Of a stretch of 41,997 bases of DNA, positions 35,252-41,997 are shown piece after piece. The notes below the pieces were generated by a model. That model was not told where the DNA came from. It saw nothing but the letters and a program-made list of their open reading frames with translations, and searched no databases. Made by a program: the position numbers and the translations under genes. Source of the DNA: an uncultured Pelagibacteraceae bacterium (GTDB taxonomy: Bacteria; Pseudomonadota; Alphaproteobacteria; Pelagibacterales; Pelagibacteraceae); contig CACPCL010000007.1 in NCBI GenBank assembly GCA_902632445.1, forward strand, positions 1 to 41,997, read 5' to 3'. The stretch's first letter is position 1. Each line of letters opens with the position of its first letter.

Positions 35252-36055
35252 ATGTTTGATGATTTTTTTATAAGGGCTTTGATTGCTGGAATTGGAATTG
35301 CATTAGTTACTGGCCCCCTTGGATGTTTTATAATTTGGAGAAGATTATCTTTTTTTGGCGATACGTTATCTCATTCTGCACTTCTTGGAGTAACTATTGC
35401 TTTCTTTTTTGAATTAAATATAGCTTTTTCAGTTTTTTTAATTTCATCAGCAATCGCACTGATACTTTTAAAACTCCAAAAAACTACAAAACTACCTGGC
35501 GATGCATTATTAGGTTTATTAGCACATTCATCTCTAGCAGTTGGTTTAGTTGTAATTGGTTTTCTTACCACGATCCGATTTGATATAATGGGACTATTAT
35601 TTGGCGACATCTTAGCTGTAAATGAAATAGATCTATTGATAATTTGGATCGGTGGAGCACTAATTTTATTAATATTGAAATTTATTTGGAAACCTCTGTT
35701 TGCCTCAACAGTTAATCATGAACTTGCTGAAGCCGAAGGAATGAAGCCTGATAAAGTGAATGCAATCTTTACAGTTTTATTAGCAGCGATAATTGCAATA
35801 TCAATTAAAATTGTAGGACTTCTGTTGATAACAGGAATGTTAATTATGCCAGCTGCAATGGCAAGAAACGTTTCTAACAATCCCACACAGATGGTTAAGT
35901 TATCAATACTAGGGGGTTTGTTATCAGTAATAATTGGTTTGTTTTCATCATTACAAATTAATACCCCTTCAGGGCCTTCGATAATTACTGCAGCGTTAGT
36001 TTTATTTTGTCTTACACTTATTAAGATCAAAAATTATTCTGAATTGAAAAAATGA
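35252..36055 (+). CDS. znuB: zinc ABC transporter permease
   Basis: 267-residue membrane permease of the ABC-3 (Mn/Zn) family, with about eight helices. WRRLSFFGDTLSHSALLGV (about 29-47) is a conserved periplasmic/TM segment, GDALLGLLAHSSLAVGLV follows, and the loop EGMKPDKVNAIFTVLLA (about 161-177) is where ZnuC docks. It starts directly after the znuC stop. zur follows 23 bases downstream, probably the same operon. Confidence 0.95.
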   Translation: MFDDFFIRALIAGIGIALVTGPLGCFIIWRRLSFFGDTLSHSALLGVTIAFFFELNIAFSVFLISSAIALILLKLQKTTKLPGDALLGLLAHSSLAVGLVVIGFLTTIRFDIMGLLFGDILAVNEIDLLIIWIGGALILLILKFIWKPLFASTVNHELAEAEGMKPDKVNAIFTVLLAAIIAISIKIVGLLLITGMLIMPAAMARNVSNNPTQMVKLSILGGLLSVIIGLFSSLQINTPSGPSIITAALVLFCLTLIKIKNYSELKK

Positions 36056-36078
36056 TATTAAATTGTTAATTTATATTT

Positions 36079-36483
36079 ATGGCACAAGCACAAACACTTT
36101 CTAGAAATCAACAAATTGTTTTAGATATTATTGAAAAAGCAAAGAGCCCTTTAAAAGCTTATTCAATACTTTTTAATGTACAAAAAAAAGGAATAAACGC
36201 CCCACAGCAAATTTATCGAGCTTTAGATAAGTTAATTGAAATGGGTAAAATACATAAAATAGAAAGTAAAAATGCTTTTGTAGCATGTAGAAGTTCAGAT
36301 TGTGAAATTTCAAAAGCAACTGCGTTTTCAATTTGTGAAAGCTGTGAAATGGTTGATGAAATTAGTGATACAAAGCTTTCAAAGTATTTATCAAATTTCA
36401 GCGATAAAAAAGGAACTAAGTTTAAAAGATTTAATTTAGAATTTTTTGGATTATGCAAAAAATGCAAAATAGAAACAAAATAA
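36079..36483 (+). CDS. zur: Fur-family zinc uptake regulator
   Basis: 134-residue Fur superfamily repressor. The N-terminal winged helix runs from about residue 8 (RNQQIVLDIIEKAKSPLKAYSI), with DNA-recognition helix NAPQQIYRALDKLIEMG at about 36-52. The C-terminal half has two C-x2-C structural zinc sites (CESC and CKKC) joined by a His-poor sensor region. Gene position after znuCB and the paired Zur boxes 5' of znuC make Zur the best identity over Fur or PerR. As the last gene of the operon it would regulate its own expression. Confidence 0.92.
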   Translation: MAQAQTLSRNQQIVLDIIEKAKSPLKAYSILFNVQKKGINAPQQIYRALDKLIEMGKIHKIESKNAFVACRSSDCEISKATAFSICESCEMVDEISDTKLSKYLSNFSDKKGTKFKRFNLEFFGLCKKCKIETK

Positions 36484-36592
36484 GCTAATCTGGGACATTC
36501 TTAAGCATATCTTCCATAATTCACTTTTTAGTTGAATAACGGTTACATTAATTTCTTATCCATGTTAAAATTTTGAAAATTTAGGAGGAGAA

Positions 36593-37534
36593 ATGAAATA
36601 TTTTAAACATTTAGTATCAATAATTGCAGCTCTTACTATTAGTAGTGCTGTTAACGCTAACGAGATCAAAATGGGTAGGGCAGACTGGGATACAGGTTAT
36701 TTCCAGGCTGAGATCTACAAACAAGCATTAGAAAAAATGGGCTACAAAGTTTCTGGTCCCCAAACTATGAAACCTCAAGTATTTTATGTTGCTGCTACAA
36801 CAGGCGATGTAGATCTATGGGTTAACGGATGGTTCGGAACTCACGATGGGTACATTTCTGAGTCTAAAGGCAAAGTAAAAGCTGTTGGTCACGTAATGAA
36901 AAAAGGTGGATTACAAGGTTATTTAATAGATAAAAAATCGGCTGATAAATTTGGTATCAAAACGGTTATGGATATTAAAAAACATGCTAAAAACTGGGAC
37001 TCTAATGGAGATGGAAAAGCAGATATGGTTGCTTGTCCTCCAGGCTGGGGATGTGAAAAAGTTATACAAAAGCACTTTGACGAACTTGGTTTAGGTGAGT
37101 TCATAAATCCTGTAAAAGCAGATTACTCAGCATCAATGGCTGACGTTATTTCTAAATACAAAAATGGTAAATCAGTATTATTTTATACTTGGACACCTAA
37201 CTGGACAGTTGGAACATTAAAACTTGGTAAGGATGTTGTTTGGATTGAAGTTCCATACAGTGGTTCGAAACCTTCAAAAGTTGCTAATGCAACGAAATCA
37301 AAAGTTAATTTAGGTTTTGGAGCAGACGATATTAGACCAGCAGCTAACGTAGATTTTCTAAAAGCAAATCCTAAAGTTGAAAAGATGTTGAAGAAAGCAT
37401 CAATTCCACTAGCAGATATTGCCGCTCAAAATCTTAAAATGAACAAAGGTGAGAAGAGCGAAAAAGCAATTAAGAAGCACGCTAACGACTGGATTAAAGC
37501 AAATCAAAGTACTTTTGATAGCTGGATTAAGTAA
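36593..37534 (+). CDS. proX: glycine betaine/proline ABC transporter substrate-binding protein
   Basis: Periplasmic binding protein, 313 residues. The signal peptide (about 1-22) is followed by ANEIKMGRADWDTGY. WVNGWFGTHDGY and CPPGWGCEKVIQ are the ligand-box segments of ProX, where Trp and aromatic residues cage the quaternary ammonium, and DSNGDGKADM matches the DxDGDGKA loop. A strong ribosome binding site, TAGGAGGAG, lies directly ahead of the ATG, suggesting high expression. It begins the proXW pair, 109 bases after zur. The ligand (glycine betaine, proline betaine or DMSP-like) cannot be read. Confidence 0.92.
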   Translation: MKYFKHLVSIIAALTISSAVNANEIKMGRADWDTGYFQAEIYKQALEKMGYKVSGPQTMKPQVFYVAATTGDVDLWVNGWFGTHDGYISESKGKVKAVGHVMKKGGLQGYLIDKKSADKFGIKTVMDIKKHAKNWDSNGDGKADMVACPPGWGCEKVIQKHFDELGLGEFINPVKADYSASMADVISKYKNGKSVLFYTWTPNWTVGTLKLGKDVVWIEVPYSGSKPSKVANATKSKVNLGFGADDIRPAANVDFLKANPKVEKMLKKASIPLADIAAQNLKMNKGEKSEKAIKKHANDWIKANQSTFDSWIK

Positions 37535-37552
37535 GGGTTAGGGTTAATTTTA

Positions 37553-38404
37553 ATGAACTTAAAATTAGCCCCCTCAGATTACGATATATACATTCCATTA
37601 GGAGAATGGATAGAAGGAAATATTAAAGAGTGGCTTTTTGAACAAAGGCCACTCTTTAAAAAAATTTCAGCCCCAATAGATACGGTTTTAAATGGATTTG
37701 AGTCTATTTTGAATTTTATACCTTTTCCAATTGTACTTCTTTTATTTGTATTTTTAGCTTATAAAACAAATGGATTTAAATTTGCATTATTTTCTCTTTT
37801 TAGTTTACTTTTTATTGACCTCGTAGACCTATGGTCAGAAAGTATGACTACACTTGCAATGATTTTCACAGCTGTTTTATTTTGTATGTTAATAGGAATT
37901 CCTCTTGGCATCATTGCTTCAAGAAGTAATACCTTTGAGATTATTTTACGTCCTATACTCGATATAATGCAAACAATACCAAGTTTCGTTTATTTAATTC
38001 CTGTGGTTATGCTTTTCGGTGTTGGTTTAACTCCTGGAGTAGTAGCTACAATCATATTTGCCTTACCACCAATTATTAGATTAACAAATTTGGGTATTAG
38101 ACAAGTTGGAAAAGGTTTTAAAGAAGCAGGATCAAGCTTAGGATTAACCAAATTTTTAATACTTATTAAAATTGAAATTCCTTTGTCTTTAAAAACCATT
38201 ATGGCAGGAGTTAATCAAACATTGATGCTTGCATTATCGATGGTAGTTATTGCAGCTCTTATAGGCGCTGGAGGTCTAGGTTTAACTGTATATATCGCCT
38301 TAGGAAGACTTGATGTAGGTTCTGCGGTTATCGGTGGAACAGGTATCGTAATTCTAGCAATTATTTTAGATAGAATTACACAAAAAATTATTAAATCACG
38401 TTAA
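37553..38404 (+). CDS. proW: glycine betaine ABC transporter permease
   Basis: 283-residue permease. The N-terminal soluble part (about 1-50: YIPLGEWIEGNIKEWLFEQ) is followed by six or so helices. The EAA loop KEAGSSLGLTKFLILIKIEIPLSL (about 189-212) is the ATPase contact. The pattern matches ProW/OpuAB. proX lies 18 bases upstream. The ATPase ProV is not adjacent: the next gene is convergent and of another function. The last 9 bases overlap the homocysteine methyltransferase gene. Confidence 0.92.
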   Translation: MNLKLAPSDYDIYIPLGEWIEGNIKEWLFEQRPLFKKISAPIDTVLNGFESILNFIPFPIVLLLFVFLAYKTNGFKFALFSLFSLLFIDLVDLWSESMTTLAMIFTAVLFCMLIGIPLGIIASRSNTFEIILRPILDIMQTIPSFVYLIPVVMLFGVGLTPGVVATIIFALPPIIRLTNLGIRQVGKGFKEAGSSLGLTKFLILIKIEIPLSLKTIMAGVNQTLMLALSMVVIAALIGAGGLGLTVYIALGRLDVGSAVIGGTGIVILAIILDRITQKIIKSR

Positions 38405-39244
38405 AGACTTCAATTTTTCGATATGTTTTGGAGTGATTTCACAACAGCCTCCAATAATTTTTGCTCCCTTGTTCTTTAATTTTTTACAGATTTCAAAGAA
38501 CTTCTTAGGGGTTAGATCTTTTCTTTTTCCAAGTTGAACTTTAGGATTATTCGAGTCAGGTTTCCATCCTGGCGGAATGTGCTCAAAAGCGTTGATTTTA
38601 AATCCAAATGGAACTTTAAGTTTTTTTGCGTCTTTCATCACTTCATTTAAATCCTCAAATGACACACAAGAAGCCATAATCCCAATAGGTTTATATTTTT
38701 GGACTTTCTTTGCCACAGTTATAAATTTTTCACCCGATGGTAACAAACCTTTACTCCTAATGTGTATACCTACTATAAAATTTTTTTTGTATTCTTTAAT
38801 TGCGCTTAATCCTAATGAACACTCTTTCCAACTACTCATTACATCTAAGTAAAAAAAATCTACAAATGGATTAAGGTATTTTGCCTGGGATCTAAAACTT
38901 TCTTTTATAAAGTTAAGATCTTTTCCAAGATCAGCAAAATAAGTGAAGTTTTGAGGTGGTAGACTTCCAGCAATCAGAACTTTTTTTTTAGACATGGCCA
39001 CGGCTTTTTTGGCCAATTTTCCTGCTAAAACGTTCAGATTTTTATATTCTTTTACCAAACCATTCTCGATCAACCTTCTTTTTCTACTACCAAAGCTATT
39101 AGTTACTATAATTTCTGCTCCAGCTTTTATAAAATCTAAATGAGTTTTGATAACCGTTTTATGGTATTTCTTTTTATATAAAGCTGAAGCTCCCCAAAGA
39201 GTTCCGTGAGGTTTTACTCCACGGTTAAGCAGCTCCTGGCCCAT
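38396..39244 (-). CDS. homocysteine S-methyltransferase family protein
   Basis: Zinc-dependent methyltransferase of the MmuM/BHMT (PF02574) type, 282 residues from the ATG used. Cys193 (MASC), Cys267 and Cys268 (GGCC) are the family zinc ligands. The conserved N-terminal motif ILDGGMGQEL is only half encoded from this ATG: the ILDGG part is in frame immediately upstream. The true start is therefore probably upstream at a non-standard codon (ATT at 39265-39263 or CTG at 39289-39287), with an in-frame stop at 39298-39296. It makes methionine from homocysteine using S-methylmethionine, betaine or another donor. It ends the prpB-prpC-small protein gene run. Confidence 0.85.
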   Translation of the reverse strand: MGQELLNRGVKPHGTLWGASALYKKKYHKTVIKTHLDFIKAGAEIIVTNSFGSRKRRLIENGLVKEYKNLNVLAGKLAKKAVAMSKKKVLIAGSLPPQNFTYFADLGKDLNFIKESFRSQAKYLNPFVDFFYLDVMSSWKECSLGLSAIKEYKKNFIVGIHIRSKGLLPSGEKFITVAKKVQKYKPIGIMASCVSFEDLNEVMKDAKKLKVPFGFKINAFEHIPPGWKPDSNNPKVQLGKRKDLTPKKFFEICKKLKNKGAKIIGGCCEITPKHIEKLKSLT

Positions 39245-39281
39245 ACCTCCATCTAAAATTCTAATCTTTTGAAAAAAATGA

Positions 39282-39467
39282 TTATCCAGAAACTTCTAAA
39301 CCAAAAAATGTTGATAAAAAAATTATAATTGCAAAAATTGCAAACCACATAATCCACTGACTTGCTACTTTAACCAAAGACCCCTTATCAATTCCTTTCC
39401 AAGGCATAAAAGTATATGTAGCTAATGTCACTAGGATTAAAAATAAAAGTAAATTAGTTAAAGTCAT
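39282..39467 (-). CDS. small membrane protein (61 aa), conserved-looking
   Basis: Two hydrophobic helices (about 4-20 and 36-55) joined by the short, basic loop PWKGIDKGSLVKVASQW. Function unknown. It is most likely a real gene: its start directly abuts the prpC stop (no gap) and its stop is 37 bases before the following ATG, in a tight operon where every other gap is 0 bases. It may be a small inner-membrane protein of the SAR11 kind seen next to metabolic genes. It has no recognisable family motif. Confidence 0.65.
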   Translation of the reverse strand: MTLTNLLLFLILVTLATYTFMPWKGIDKGSLVKVASQWIMWFAIFAIIIFLSTFFGLEVSG

Positions 39468-40592
39468 CTATCTTTGGTTTAATAACATTACTTCTCTTAC
39501 TTCAGCACCTCTGTATTTGGACAAAGGTCTAATAAGTTTGTTTGAAGCATGTTGCTCCATAATATGTGCTGACCATCCAGTAATTCGTGACATAACAAAG
39601 ATTGGAGTATAAAAGTCTATATCGATGCCCATCATATAATAAGTTGGACCACAAGGAAAATCTACATTTGGATGGATATTTTTTCGGTCAATCATTATTT
39701 TTTCTAAAATTTCATAAATTCTTGTATATTTTTCTTTTTTTAAAAGTTTCGCTACTTTAAACATATAGTGTTTCATCGTTGGAACCCTTGAGTCTCCTGT
39801 TCTATAAACTCTGTGACCAAAACCCATTACAACTTTCTTTTTATCTAATGCATTTTCAATCCAAGCTTTAGCTTTCTCAGGTCTGCCTATTTCTTTCATC
39901 ATATGCATTACAGCCTCATTTGCTCCACCGTGTAACGGACCTTTTAAAGATGCTATCGCGCCGGTAATCGCACCATGTAAATCAGACAGGCTAGAAGTAA
40001 TTGTTCTTGCGGTAAAAGTTGAAACATTAAAACTATGTTCAGCATATAAAATTAATGAGATATCAAACGCCCTCACTATTTCTTTATCCGGCACTTTATT
40101 AAACATCATTTTAAAAAAATTTTCTGAAAAAGATAAATTTTTACTTGGAGAAATTATGCTTTTACCTTTCCTCGCTCTAAAATATGCAGCAACTGCAGTA
40201 GGTGTCTTTGCAAAAATTCTCATCGCTTTTCTCATATTTGCTTTTGGAGAATTATCTTTTGTATCTTTATCTTCTAATGCCATTAAACTAACACATGTTC
40301 TTATCACATCCATAGGATGTGCGTTCTTTGGCATCTTCTTGATATCGTTTAATATTTGTTTTGAAAGTTTTCTTTCAGATCTTTCTTGTTTTATAAATCT
40401 TTTAAGCTGATTTTTATTTGGGAGCTCACCATTAAGAACAAGATATGCAACTTCTTCAAAATCACATTTATCACAAAGTTCTTGTACCGTATAACCCCTA
40501 TAGGTAAGTGCACTTAATTCTGGCACCACATGAGATATAGTTGTTTCATCAACGACTATTCCTAATAATCCTTTTTTAATTTCTTCACTCAT
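39468..40592 (-). CDS. prpC: 2-methylcitrate synthase
   Basis: Citrate-synthase fold, 374 residues, the short PrpC/type I length. Active-site regions: SLKGPLHGGANEAVMHMMKEIG (about 202-223) with a catalytic His, GFGHRVYRTGDSR (about 254-266) with the second His and Arg, and VDFPCGPTYYMMGID with the catalytic Asp. Condenses propionyl-CoA with oxaloacetate in the 2-methylcitrate cycle. A plain citrate synthase is not excluded by sequence alone, but pairing with prpB supports PrpC. It starts 0 bases after the prpB stop. Confidence 0.9.
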   Translation of the reverse strand: MSEEIKKGLLGIVVDETTISHVVPELSALTYRGYTVQELCDKCDFEEVAYLVLNGELPNKNQLKRFIKQERSERKLSKQILNDIKKMPKNAHPMDVIRTCVSLMALEDKDTKDNSPKANMRKAMRIFAKTPTAVAAYFRARKGKSIISPSKNLSFSENFFKMMFNKVPDKEIVRAFDISLILYAEHSFNVSTFTARTITSSLSDLHGAITGAIASLKGPLHGGANEAVMHMMKEIGRPEKAKAWIENALDKKKVVMGFGHRVYRTGDSRVPTMKHYMFKVAKLLKKEKYTRIYEILEKIMIDRKNIHPNVDFPCGPTYYMMGIDIDFYTPIFVMSRITGWSAHIMEQHASNKLIRPLSKYRGAEVREVMLLNQR

Positions 40593-41489
40593 TTATTCAT
40601 GTCCCTCTGTAGAAAAATCAGTTATTTTCTTATCTGGCGTATTGTATTTCTCATATTCTACTAACTCGTACAACCTTTTTCTAGTCTGCATTTTGTCAAT
40701 AACATTGTTTTGATGGCCATCATTAAATATTGATTTTAAACCCATTTCTACATTTTGCATTGCTAGTCTTTGGGTACTTACAGGATAAATAACAATGTTG
40801 TAACCTAAACTTTCTAATTGTTTTTTTTCTAACAATTTAGATTTTCCAAATTCAGTCATATTAGCAAGCAAATAACCTTTAGCTACTTTTCTAACTTTTT
40901 CAAATTCAGTCTCATCTTTCATAGCTTCAGGAAAAATCATATCAGCCCCAGCATCTTCGTAAGCTTTTATTCTATCCAACGTTTTATCTAAACCCTCAAC
41001 AGAATTGGCATCTGTTCTTGCAATTATTAAAAAGTTTTGATCTTTTCTAGCATTAACCGACTCTTTAATTTTTTTAACCATTTCGTCTTTGGTTACTAAT
41101 TCTTTATTATCCAGGTGCCCACATCTTTTTTCAGATATTTGATCTTCTAAATGACATCCAGCTAAACCTTTGCTTTCAAAAACTTGAATTGTTTTTGTAC
41201 AATTTCCAAAACCTGTATCAATATCAACTATTGTAGGAAGATCAGTTACTCTAGCTATTTGTCCACTTCGATAACTTACTTGGTCTAATGTTGTTAAACC
41301 AATATCAGGCAAACCAAGATCATTAGACATAACTCCACCTGAAACATAAACTCCTTCAAAACCAATTTCAGCAATCAGTTTTGCGCACAAAGGATTGTAT
41401 GCCCCTGGAAATCTTAATAATTTTTTTGATTTTAAAGCTTTAACTAAATATAATCTTTTTTCTGAAATTGTTTTTTTAGTAAAATGCAT
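40593..41489 (-). CDS. prpB: methylisocitrate lyase
   Basis: PEP mutase/isocitrate-lyase superfamily, 298 residues. LRFPGAYNPLCAKLIAEIGFEGVYVSGG (about 25-52) is the first strand region, VDIDTGFGN is the metal loop, and SEKRCGHLD (about 119-127) has the catalytic Cys of the KRCGH motif. It cleaves 2-methylisocitrate to succinate and pyruvate, the last step of propionate oxidation. First gene of the minus-strand run prpB, prpC, small protein, homocysteine methyltransferase. prpD is not in this window. Confidence 0.95.
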   Translation of the reverse strand: MHFTKKTISEKRLYLVKALKSKKLLRFPGAYNPLCAKLIAEIGFEGVYVSGGVMSNDLGLPDIGLTTLDQVSYRSGQIARVTDLPTIVDIDTGFGNCTKTIQVFESKGLAGCHLEDQISEKRCGHLDNKELVTKDEMVKKIKESVNARKDQNFLIIARTDANSVEGLDKTLDRIKAYEDAGADMIFPEAMKDETEFEKVRKVAKGYLLANMTEFGKSKLLEKKQLESLGYNIVIYPVSTQRLAMQNVEMGLKSIFNDGHQNNVIDKMQTRKRLYELVEYEKYNTPDKKITDFSTEGHE

Positions 41490-41530
41490 TCGAGCTGATT
41501 TATATTAGAGCAGAATGCAAAAATCAAAGA

Positions 41531-41997
41531 CTATTTCAGCAATATAAACAAACCAGTTAATACTAATAAAACTGCGAGTAAATATTCAATAATCTTTTTT
41601 AATTTTATATTTGTTACAAATTTTCTTAAACCACTTCCAAAAAGTGCCCATAGACTAATTGTTGGGAAACAAATTACTGCAGCTGTAATTGTAACAAATG
41701 CGACTCCAATAAAAATATTTTCTTCTGTTGGAAAAAAACCTGATGCAACTGTAACAGCAATGGACCAAGCTTTAGGATTTATAAACTGAAATAACGAAGC
41801 TTCATAGAATCTTAGCGGTCTTCCAGTTTCCTTTTGAACTAAACTAAATGAGCCGATCATTTTCCACCCAAGGTAAACCAAATATATAAAACATAAAATT
41901 TTCATATAAAATTGAACTTGAGGATATAATAAAAATAAATTTGCTAAACCAAAGCAAGTTAAACCTATTTGCATTATATGGCCTAAAGGAATACCAA
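41531..41997 (-). CDS. LysE-family amino-acid exporter, truncated at window edge
   Basis: Part of a LysE/RhtB-type translocator. The frame stays open to the last base of the window (visible upstream residues GIPLGHI before the first ATG at 41974), so the N terminus is missing and the ATG is internal. About 155 residues are visible, with hydrophobic helices (LTCFGLANLFLL, ILCFIYLVYLGWKMIG, IFIGVAFVTITAAVICF and a C-terminal LLAVLLVLTGLFILL), and the LysE motif FINPKAWSIAVTVASGF. The exported substrate is unknown. Confidence 0.82.
   Translation of the reverse strand, partial: GIPLGHIMQIGLTCFGLANLFLLYPQVQFYMKILCFIYLVYLGWKMIGSFSLVQKETGRPLRFYEASLFQFINPKAWSIAVTVASGFFPTEENIFIGVAFVTITAAVICFPTISLWALFGSGLRKFVTNIKLKKIIEYLLAVLLVLTGLFILLK

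Follow-up and report, generated by a model that had tools for sequence, protein, structure and literature searches.

A probable CTG start codon for an MmuM-like homocysteine S-methyltransferase in a Pelagibacteraceae prp operon

Introduction

According to a figure quoted in PMC11983097, CTG is the annotated start codon of 20 of nearly 85,000 genes in model bacterial genomes, or 0.024% (the same percentage is given in PMC11497404), and a second-hand figure puts CUG initiation in E. coli at 0.86% of that from AUG (PMC11497404). A case described in PMC11983097 is the rep gene of the FIB replicon of F-like plasmids, which has its own RBS and a CTG start that is backed by N-terminal analysis and by mutation of CTG to CTC. 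Where genes overlap, a ribosome may terminate and reinitiate on the same transcript; the abstract of PMC6728339 names ATGA and TGATG overlaps as sites of such termination-reinitiation. In SAR11 bacteria, homocysteine S-methyltransferase genes are known from a different setting: in Ca. P. ubique the SAM-V riboswitch reportedly hides the ribosome-binding site of its genes, mmuM among them (PMC5069961), and SAR11_0750 (mmuM, HTCC1062) is tabulated with a SAM-V riboswitch (PMC2704228). The start codon of the Pelagibacter homocysteine methyltransferase is not treated in the available portions of PMC12478193, PMC3160333, PMC5069961 and PMC2704228, and no report of CTG starts in SAR11, or of a CTG start of this methyltransferase, was recognised in the open-licence literature searched.

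Reading frame and identity of the enzyme

The window (the whole stretch of DNA analysed, 41,997 nucleotides), which belongs to a SAR11 (Pelagibacteraceae) genome, carries on its minus strand a methyltransferase gene, the open frame of which extends from 39295 to 38399, between a TAG at 39298-39296 and a TGA at 38398-38396. The features at issue are the following:

38396..39289, minus strand: homocysteine S-methyltransferase gene (mmuM-like), from the proposed CTG start to the TGA stop, 297 aa, delimited by PF02574, the start-column alignment and an AlphaFold model
39287..39289, minus strand: proposed start codon CTG
39296..39298, minus strand: in-frame TAG, which bars any start farther upstream
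39263..39265, minus strand: ATT, rejected start candidate
39257..39259, minus strand: ATT, rejected start candidate
39242..39244, minus strand: first in-frame ATG, inside the DGGMGQEL motif, rejected as start on the basis of sequence, alignment and AlphaFold model

Beginning with the upstream stop, the codons of the minus strand read TAG AAG TTT CTG (39289-39287) GAT AAT CAT TTT TTT CAA AAG ATT (39265-39263) AGA ATT (39259-39257) TTA GAT GGA GGT ATG (39244-39242) GGC CAG GAG CTG. The first-pass annotation had stated that no ATG, GTG or TTG lies between the upstream stop and the ATG at 39244, that this ATG falls inside a conserved motif and that the Asp of the motif is conserved. All three statements were borne out: the coordinates and codon lists are correct throughout, the ATG is embedded in DGGMGQEL, and D13, G14 and G15, which all precede it, are invariant in an alignment of 39 sequences. 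A full-length protein cannot be produced from any ATG, GTG or TTG of the window frame. At its other end, the gene overlaps tail-to-tail by 9 nt (38396-38404) with a gene for a ProW-like transporter permease on the opposite strand.

The deduced protein matches PF02574 with 169.5 bits (cut-off 22) over positions 2-281 of the 283 of the Pfam model. In the alignment of 39 sequences, C208, C282 and C283 are likewise invariant; these cysteines are taken to be the three zinc ligands, and the DGG motif is presumed to be characteristic of homocysteine S-methyltransferase. All NCBIfam equivalog models that the protein matches score under their cut-offs, including those for betaine-homocysteine methyltransferase (NF005718, 73.9 bits, cut-off 338) and MmuM (NF007020, 88.3 bits, cut-off 215), and because of the latter score the enzyme is named mmuM-like only. 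An AlphaFold model computed from the CTG has a mean pLDDT of 92.8 and is similar to E. coli MmuM (5dmm) over the whole-length fold (TMt 0.82) at 22% identity; structure comparison also matches it to BHMT and to the homocysteine domain of MetH. Judged by sequence and predicted fold, the gene product is an MmuM-like homocysteine S-methyltransferase of ordinary type, a name that does not fix the methyl donor.

The start column among homologous frames

Homologues are found in 146 of the 297 genomes of the family sample (Pelagibacteraceae) and in 72 of the 169 genomes of the genus, within which the gene seems to be often gained or lost. The nearest named hit, from an uncultured Pelagibacteraceae, is 96% identical. 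In one related genome the homologue (G331:C3:13214-14078) is interrupted by several in-frame stops and seems to have decayed. With the genus restricted to genomes of 90% completeness or more and 5% contamination or less, the gene is present in 7 of 14. The 40 stretches fetched are a subset of the family matches. Counting frames as distinct when they differ within the 60 nt before and the 500 nt after the motif, the 205 loci reduce to 105 DNA-distinct frames, two of which (L026 and L069) are truncated at the start, leaving 103 for the comparison of start codons. Eight of the 205 loci have no frame that fits the motif pattern and were dropped: in L083, L085 and L096 the N-terminus is missing, and L169, L185, L201, L202 and L203 are motif variants that, by inspection, have an ATG 12-14 codons ahead of the motif Asp. 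Codons are numbered back from the Asp of DGGMGQEL, which places the window CTG at -12; the 46 nearest sequences include that of the window, and the phylogeny stems from a quick tree method.

The codon at -12 in the 103 Pelagibacteraceae frames is CTG (48), ATG (27), TTG (8), GTG (2), TTA (9), TCA (1), ATT (6), ATA (1) or GAT (1), counts that do not represent independent events, as many of the frames are closely related. NTG thus occupies this column in 85 of the 103 frames, 37 of them with ATG, GTG or TTG, and the remaining 18 have either GTG at -14 (10 frames, with TTA or TCA at -12) or ATG at -13 (8 frames, with ATT, ATA or GAT at -12); an NTG somewhere between -14 and -12 is common to all 103. 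A column that varies only in the first base of NTG is the pattern expected of a start codon. In 17 of the 27 frames with ATG at -12, this ATG is the sole ATG, GTG or TTG ahead of the motif. In the half of the tree that includes the window there are frames with ATG (L168, L170 and L171, 55-60% identical), GTG (L089 and L090) and TTG (L166 and L167). As a side observation, the start has apparently moved in the frames with GTG at -14, namely L062, L068, L071, L074, L078, L087, L091, L094, L133 and L134.

An alignment of homologues had been proposed in the first-pass annotation as a check, and in it the ATG, GTG and TTG starts of relatives fall at the column of the window CTG. For the window, the contention of a start other than ATG, GTG or TTG is supported, given that 101 of the 103 homologous frames carry such a codon upstream of the motif ATG and that the sequence leading up to this ATG encodes conserved protein. 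The options listed at that stage fared differently: CTG 39289 aligns with the ATG, GTG and TTG starts of the relatives, whereas the preference for ATT is not supported.

An independent marker of the start is provided by the SAM-V riboswitch (RF01826): in nine of 20 loci scanned, picked from the 205, its end is followed after 3-10 nt by the aligned ATG (L136, L137, L178, L180, L184, L190, L192, L197 and L198). GAGG is located at or just past the end of SAM-V in seven of the nine and is weaker in L184 and L190; this placement fixes the aligned ATG as start in those loci independently. Taken together, the counts of NTG, the sole ATG in 17 of 27 frames and the placement of SAM-V indicate that the N-terminus of the family is at the -12 column. 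The SAM-V carriers share approximately 50% identity with the window protein (49-51% in the case of the six, out of nine, that were aligned) and occupy a separate branch of the quick tree together with most other ATG frames, so that both may be paralogues of the window gene. Upstream of the methyltransferase in the window, SAM-V is absent (Rfam on 36000-41997), which points to a difference in control between the related genes; the one sub-threshold match in this region, to a small nucleolar RNA family, was judged to be due to chance.

In-frame stops ahead of the CTG

Only two of the 103 frames, those of the window and of L128 (73% identical), have no ATG, GTG or TTG ahead of the motif, and both carry an in-frame stop at -15, three codons before the CTG: TAG in the window and TAA in L128. 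The two are positioned in separate branches of the quick tree, in which L128 pairs with L086 (SH-aLRT 95). In the 46 nearest sequences, TTG occurs at -15 in 42 and at -17 in 44, both positions lying within an overlapping small ORF, and the relatives might accordingly start at one of these codons; the TAG of the window would then have cut off that start, leaving a newly damaged gene or reflecting an assembly error. Very little credence can be given to this reading: over the remainder of its frame the window gene is undamaged and shares 96% identity with the nearest relatives, -15 is TTA, TCG or TTC in three other nearest sequences, all of which keep the TTG at -17, and the ATG starts of other lineages are found at -12 or -13 and in no case at -15 or -17. 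Moreover, the window differs from most near relatives at -15 by three bases, by which the small ORF changes from GGA ATT to GGT TTA (Gly-Ile to Gly-Leu); this replacement, coherent when read as codons of the small ORF, is unlike a single-base error. The stops in the window and L128 and the TTA, TCG or TTC in the three others argue that the TTG at -15 is dispensable, while the NTG at -12 is retained. Since the upstream TTGs could be the true start of the near relatives, a CTG start is compelled by the sequence solely in the window and in L128; the relatives with upstream TTGs would presumably use it as well.

The protein segment ahead of the motif

Across the frames, -8 is F or Y in 101 of 104, with the synonyms TTT/TTC and TAT/TAC, -7 is F in 103 of 104 and -3 is R or K in 104 of 105; R-I-L at -3 to -1 is conserved family-wide with synonymous variation, the column of ATT 39259 holding 101 I and 4 V in 105 frames (ATT, ATA, ATC, GTA or GTT). 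In the close clade, positions -10, -9, -6 and -5 often change their amino acid, so that the case for protein constraint depends on FF and RIL alone. When the protein is modelled with AlphaFold from the CTG, it has a helical turn at residues 5-7 and the first strand at residues 10-12, with Asp13 next.

ATT starts occur in bacteria, infC and pcnB being examples, and initiation at ATT 39265 or ATT 39259 would be in frame and close to the motif; at the column of ATT 39265, three relatives (L177, L189 and L191) have TTG, alongside ATG at the CTG column. This reading is nevertheless hardly credible. Of the 46 nearest sequences, only that of the window has ATT at the 39265 column and 38 have ACA; a protein starting at this codon would, in the model, begin just one residue ahead of strand 1; ATT 39259 encodes the conserved Ile, and a start at this codon would cut into strand 1. 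Either start would drop the conserved aromatic pair FF, and both codons are without an SD (+1.0 kcal/mol for ATT 39265 and -0.2 kcal/mol for ATT 39259). A base error that turned an ATG into ATT, mentioned in the first-pass annotation, is not suggested by the relatives, in which no frame has ATG at either ATT position.

Equally hard to credit is a start at ATG 39244 behind GGAGGT, which would yield a shortened enzyme of 282 aa. This hexamer pairs strongly with the anti-SD (-9.9 kcal/mol, beating 99% of random sites), but it is separated from the ATG by one base, a spacing too short for a working SD, and it encodes the invariant Gly-Gly; because some relatives have GGG GGT, GGC GGT or GGT GGT instead, the stretch is maintained for its codons and not for SD function. 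According to the model, the protein would also lose the helical turn, strand 1 and the invariant Asp.

SD strength was rejected as a general test of starts. Before the CTG there is no convincing SD (-2.2 kcal/mol, a value that 39% of random sites match), which counts against this start, but in 45 ORFs of the window (mechanical first-start calls, uncurated and including the methyltransferase at ATG 39244) an SD signal is absent on average, with -1.4 kcal/mol compared to -1.3 kcal/mol for random sites, which renders the test uninformative.

Operon context and proposed mechanism

The methyltransferase is the last gene in the order prpB-prpC-61-aa ORF-methyltransferase, with spacings of 0, 0 and -8 nt:

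40593..41489, minus strand: methylisocitrate lyase (prpB-like), TIGR02317 375.7 bits, cut-off 354.4; its stop directly abuts prpC
39468..40592, minus strand: 2-methylcitrate synthase/citrate synthase (prpC-like), NF010636 589.8 bits, cut-off 479; its stop directly abuts the 61-aa ORF
39282..39467, minus strand: 61-aa ORF without family name, stop TAA at 39284-39282, 8-nt overlap with the CTG start (CTGGATAA)

The small ORF is conserved in 46 sequences of equal length, including that of the window, to which they are at least 83% identical. Neither Pfam nor NCBIfam yields a family for it at E 0.001; its hydrophobic sequence suggests that it is probably a small membrane protein. Of the 46 near sequences, 42 have prpC directly adjoining the small ORF and two have a gap of 2 nt between them; in the other two the end of prpC was unmatched by the search pattern. 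In L073, the usual TAA of the small ORF is TTA, making that ORF one codon longer.

Of the 46 sequences that carry the 61-aa ORF, 41 have CTG and five have TTG at -12. The T of the CTG is invariant in 46 of 46, whereas 12 of 12 fourfold sites examined in the small ORF vary. This invariant wobble T was set aside as evidence for a start, being indecisive within the close clade because an internal Leu codon fits too.

The overlap of stop and start at 39289-39282 (8 nt) has the position expected of a translationally coupled pair. As the CTG overlaps the stop of the small ORF in a tight operon, termination-reinitiation is likely and is the simplest mechanism. In the best explanation of the locus, which the comparative evidence makes highly probable, an ordinary MmuM-like homocysteine S-methyltransferase is translated from CTG 39289-39287, most likely by reinitiation after the small ORF. 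A ribosome that has finished the small ORF would restart at the overlapping CUG, and the initiator tRNA would read this codon as fMet, giving a product M-DNHFFQKIRILDGGMGQEL... Since E. coli initiates only weakly at CUG, a low output is expected, and reinitiation at this codon would make the enzyme a low-output gene of the prp operon.

Discussion

That 48 of 103 frames have CTG in the start column, and that stops in two of them, on separate branches, leave no canonical alternative, suggests that gene finders restricted to ATG, GTG and TTG misplace such starts in SAR11. At the same time, a single start site offers a natural series of ATG, GTG, TTG and CTG. A more far-reaching reading is that the enzyme was placed under the prp operon instead of SAM-V, that its start shifted among ATG, GTG, TTG and CTG at one site until the clade kept CTG as a deliberately weak, reinitiation-driven start, and that initiation at CUG in overlapping genes may be commoner in SAR11 than the annotation suggests. 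This scenario is considered unlikely; its odds are lowered by the placement of the SAM-V carriers in a branch of their own, as possible paralogues, which gives no direction of change.

As far as sequence comparison can tell, the locus represents a new comparative case, spanning one SAR11 clade, of the known but very rare bacterial CTG start. It resembles the FIB rep gene in that the CTG start was overlooked by annotation in favour of a downstream canonical codon; it differs in that the evidence is comparative and in that the start overlaps an upstream stop. With the termination-reinitiation pairs of PMC6728339 it shares the overlap of stop and start on one transcript, here extending over 8 nt and involving CTG. 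SAR11_0750, the SAR11 mmuM tabulated in PMC2704228, likewise encodes a homocysteine S-methyltransferase; in contrast to it, the window gene has no SAM-V, follows a 61-aa ORF within a prp operon and carries the proposed CTG start.
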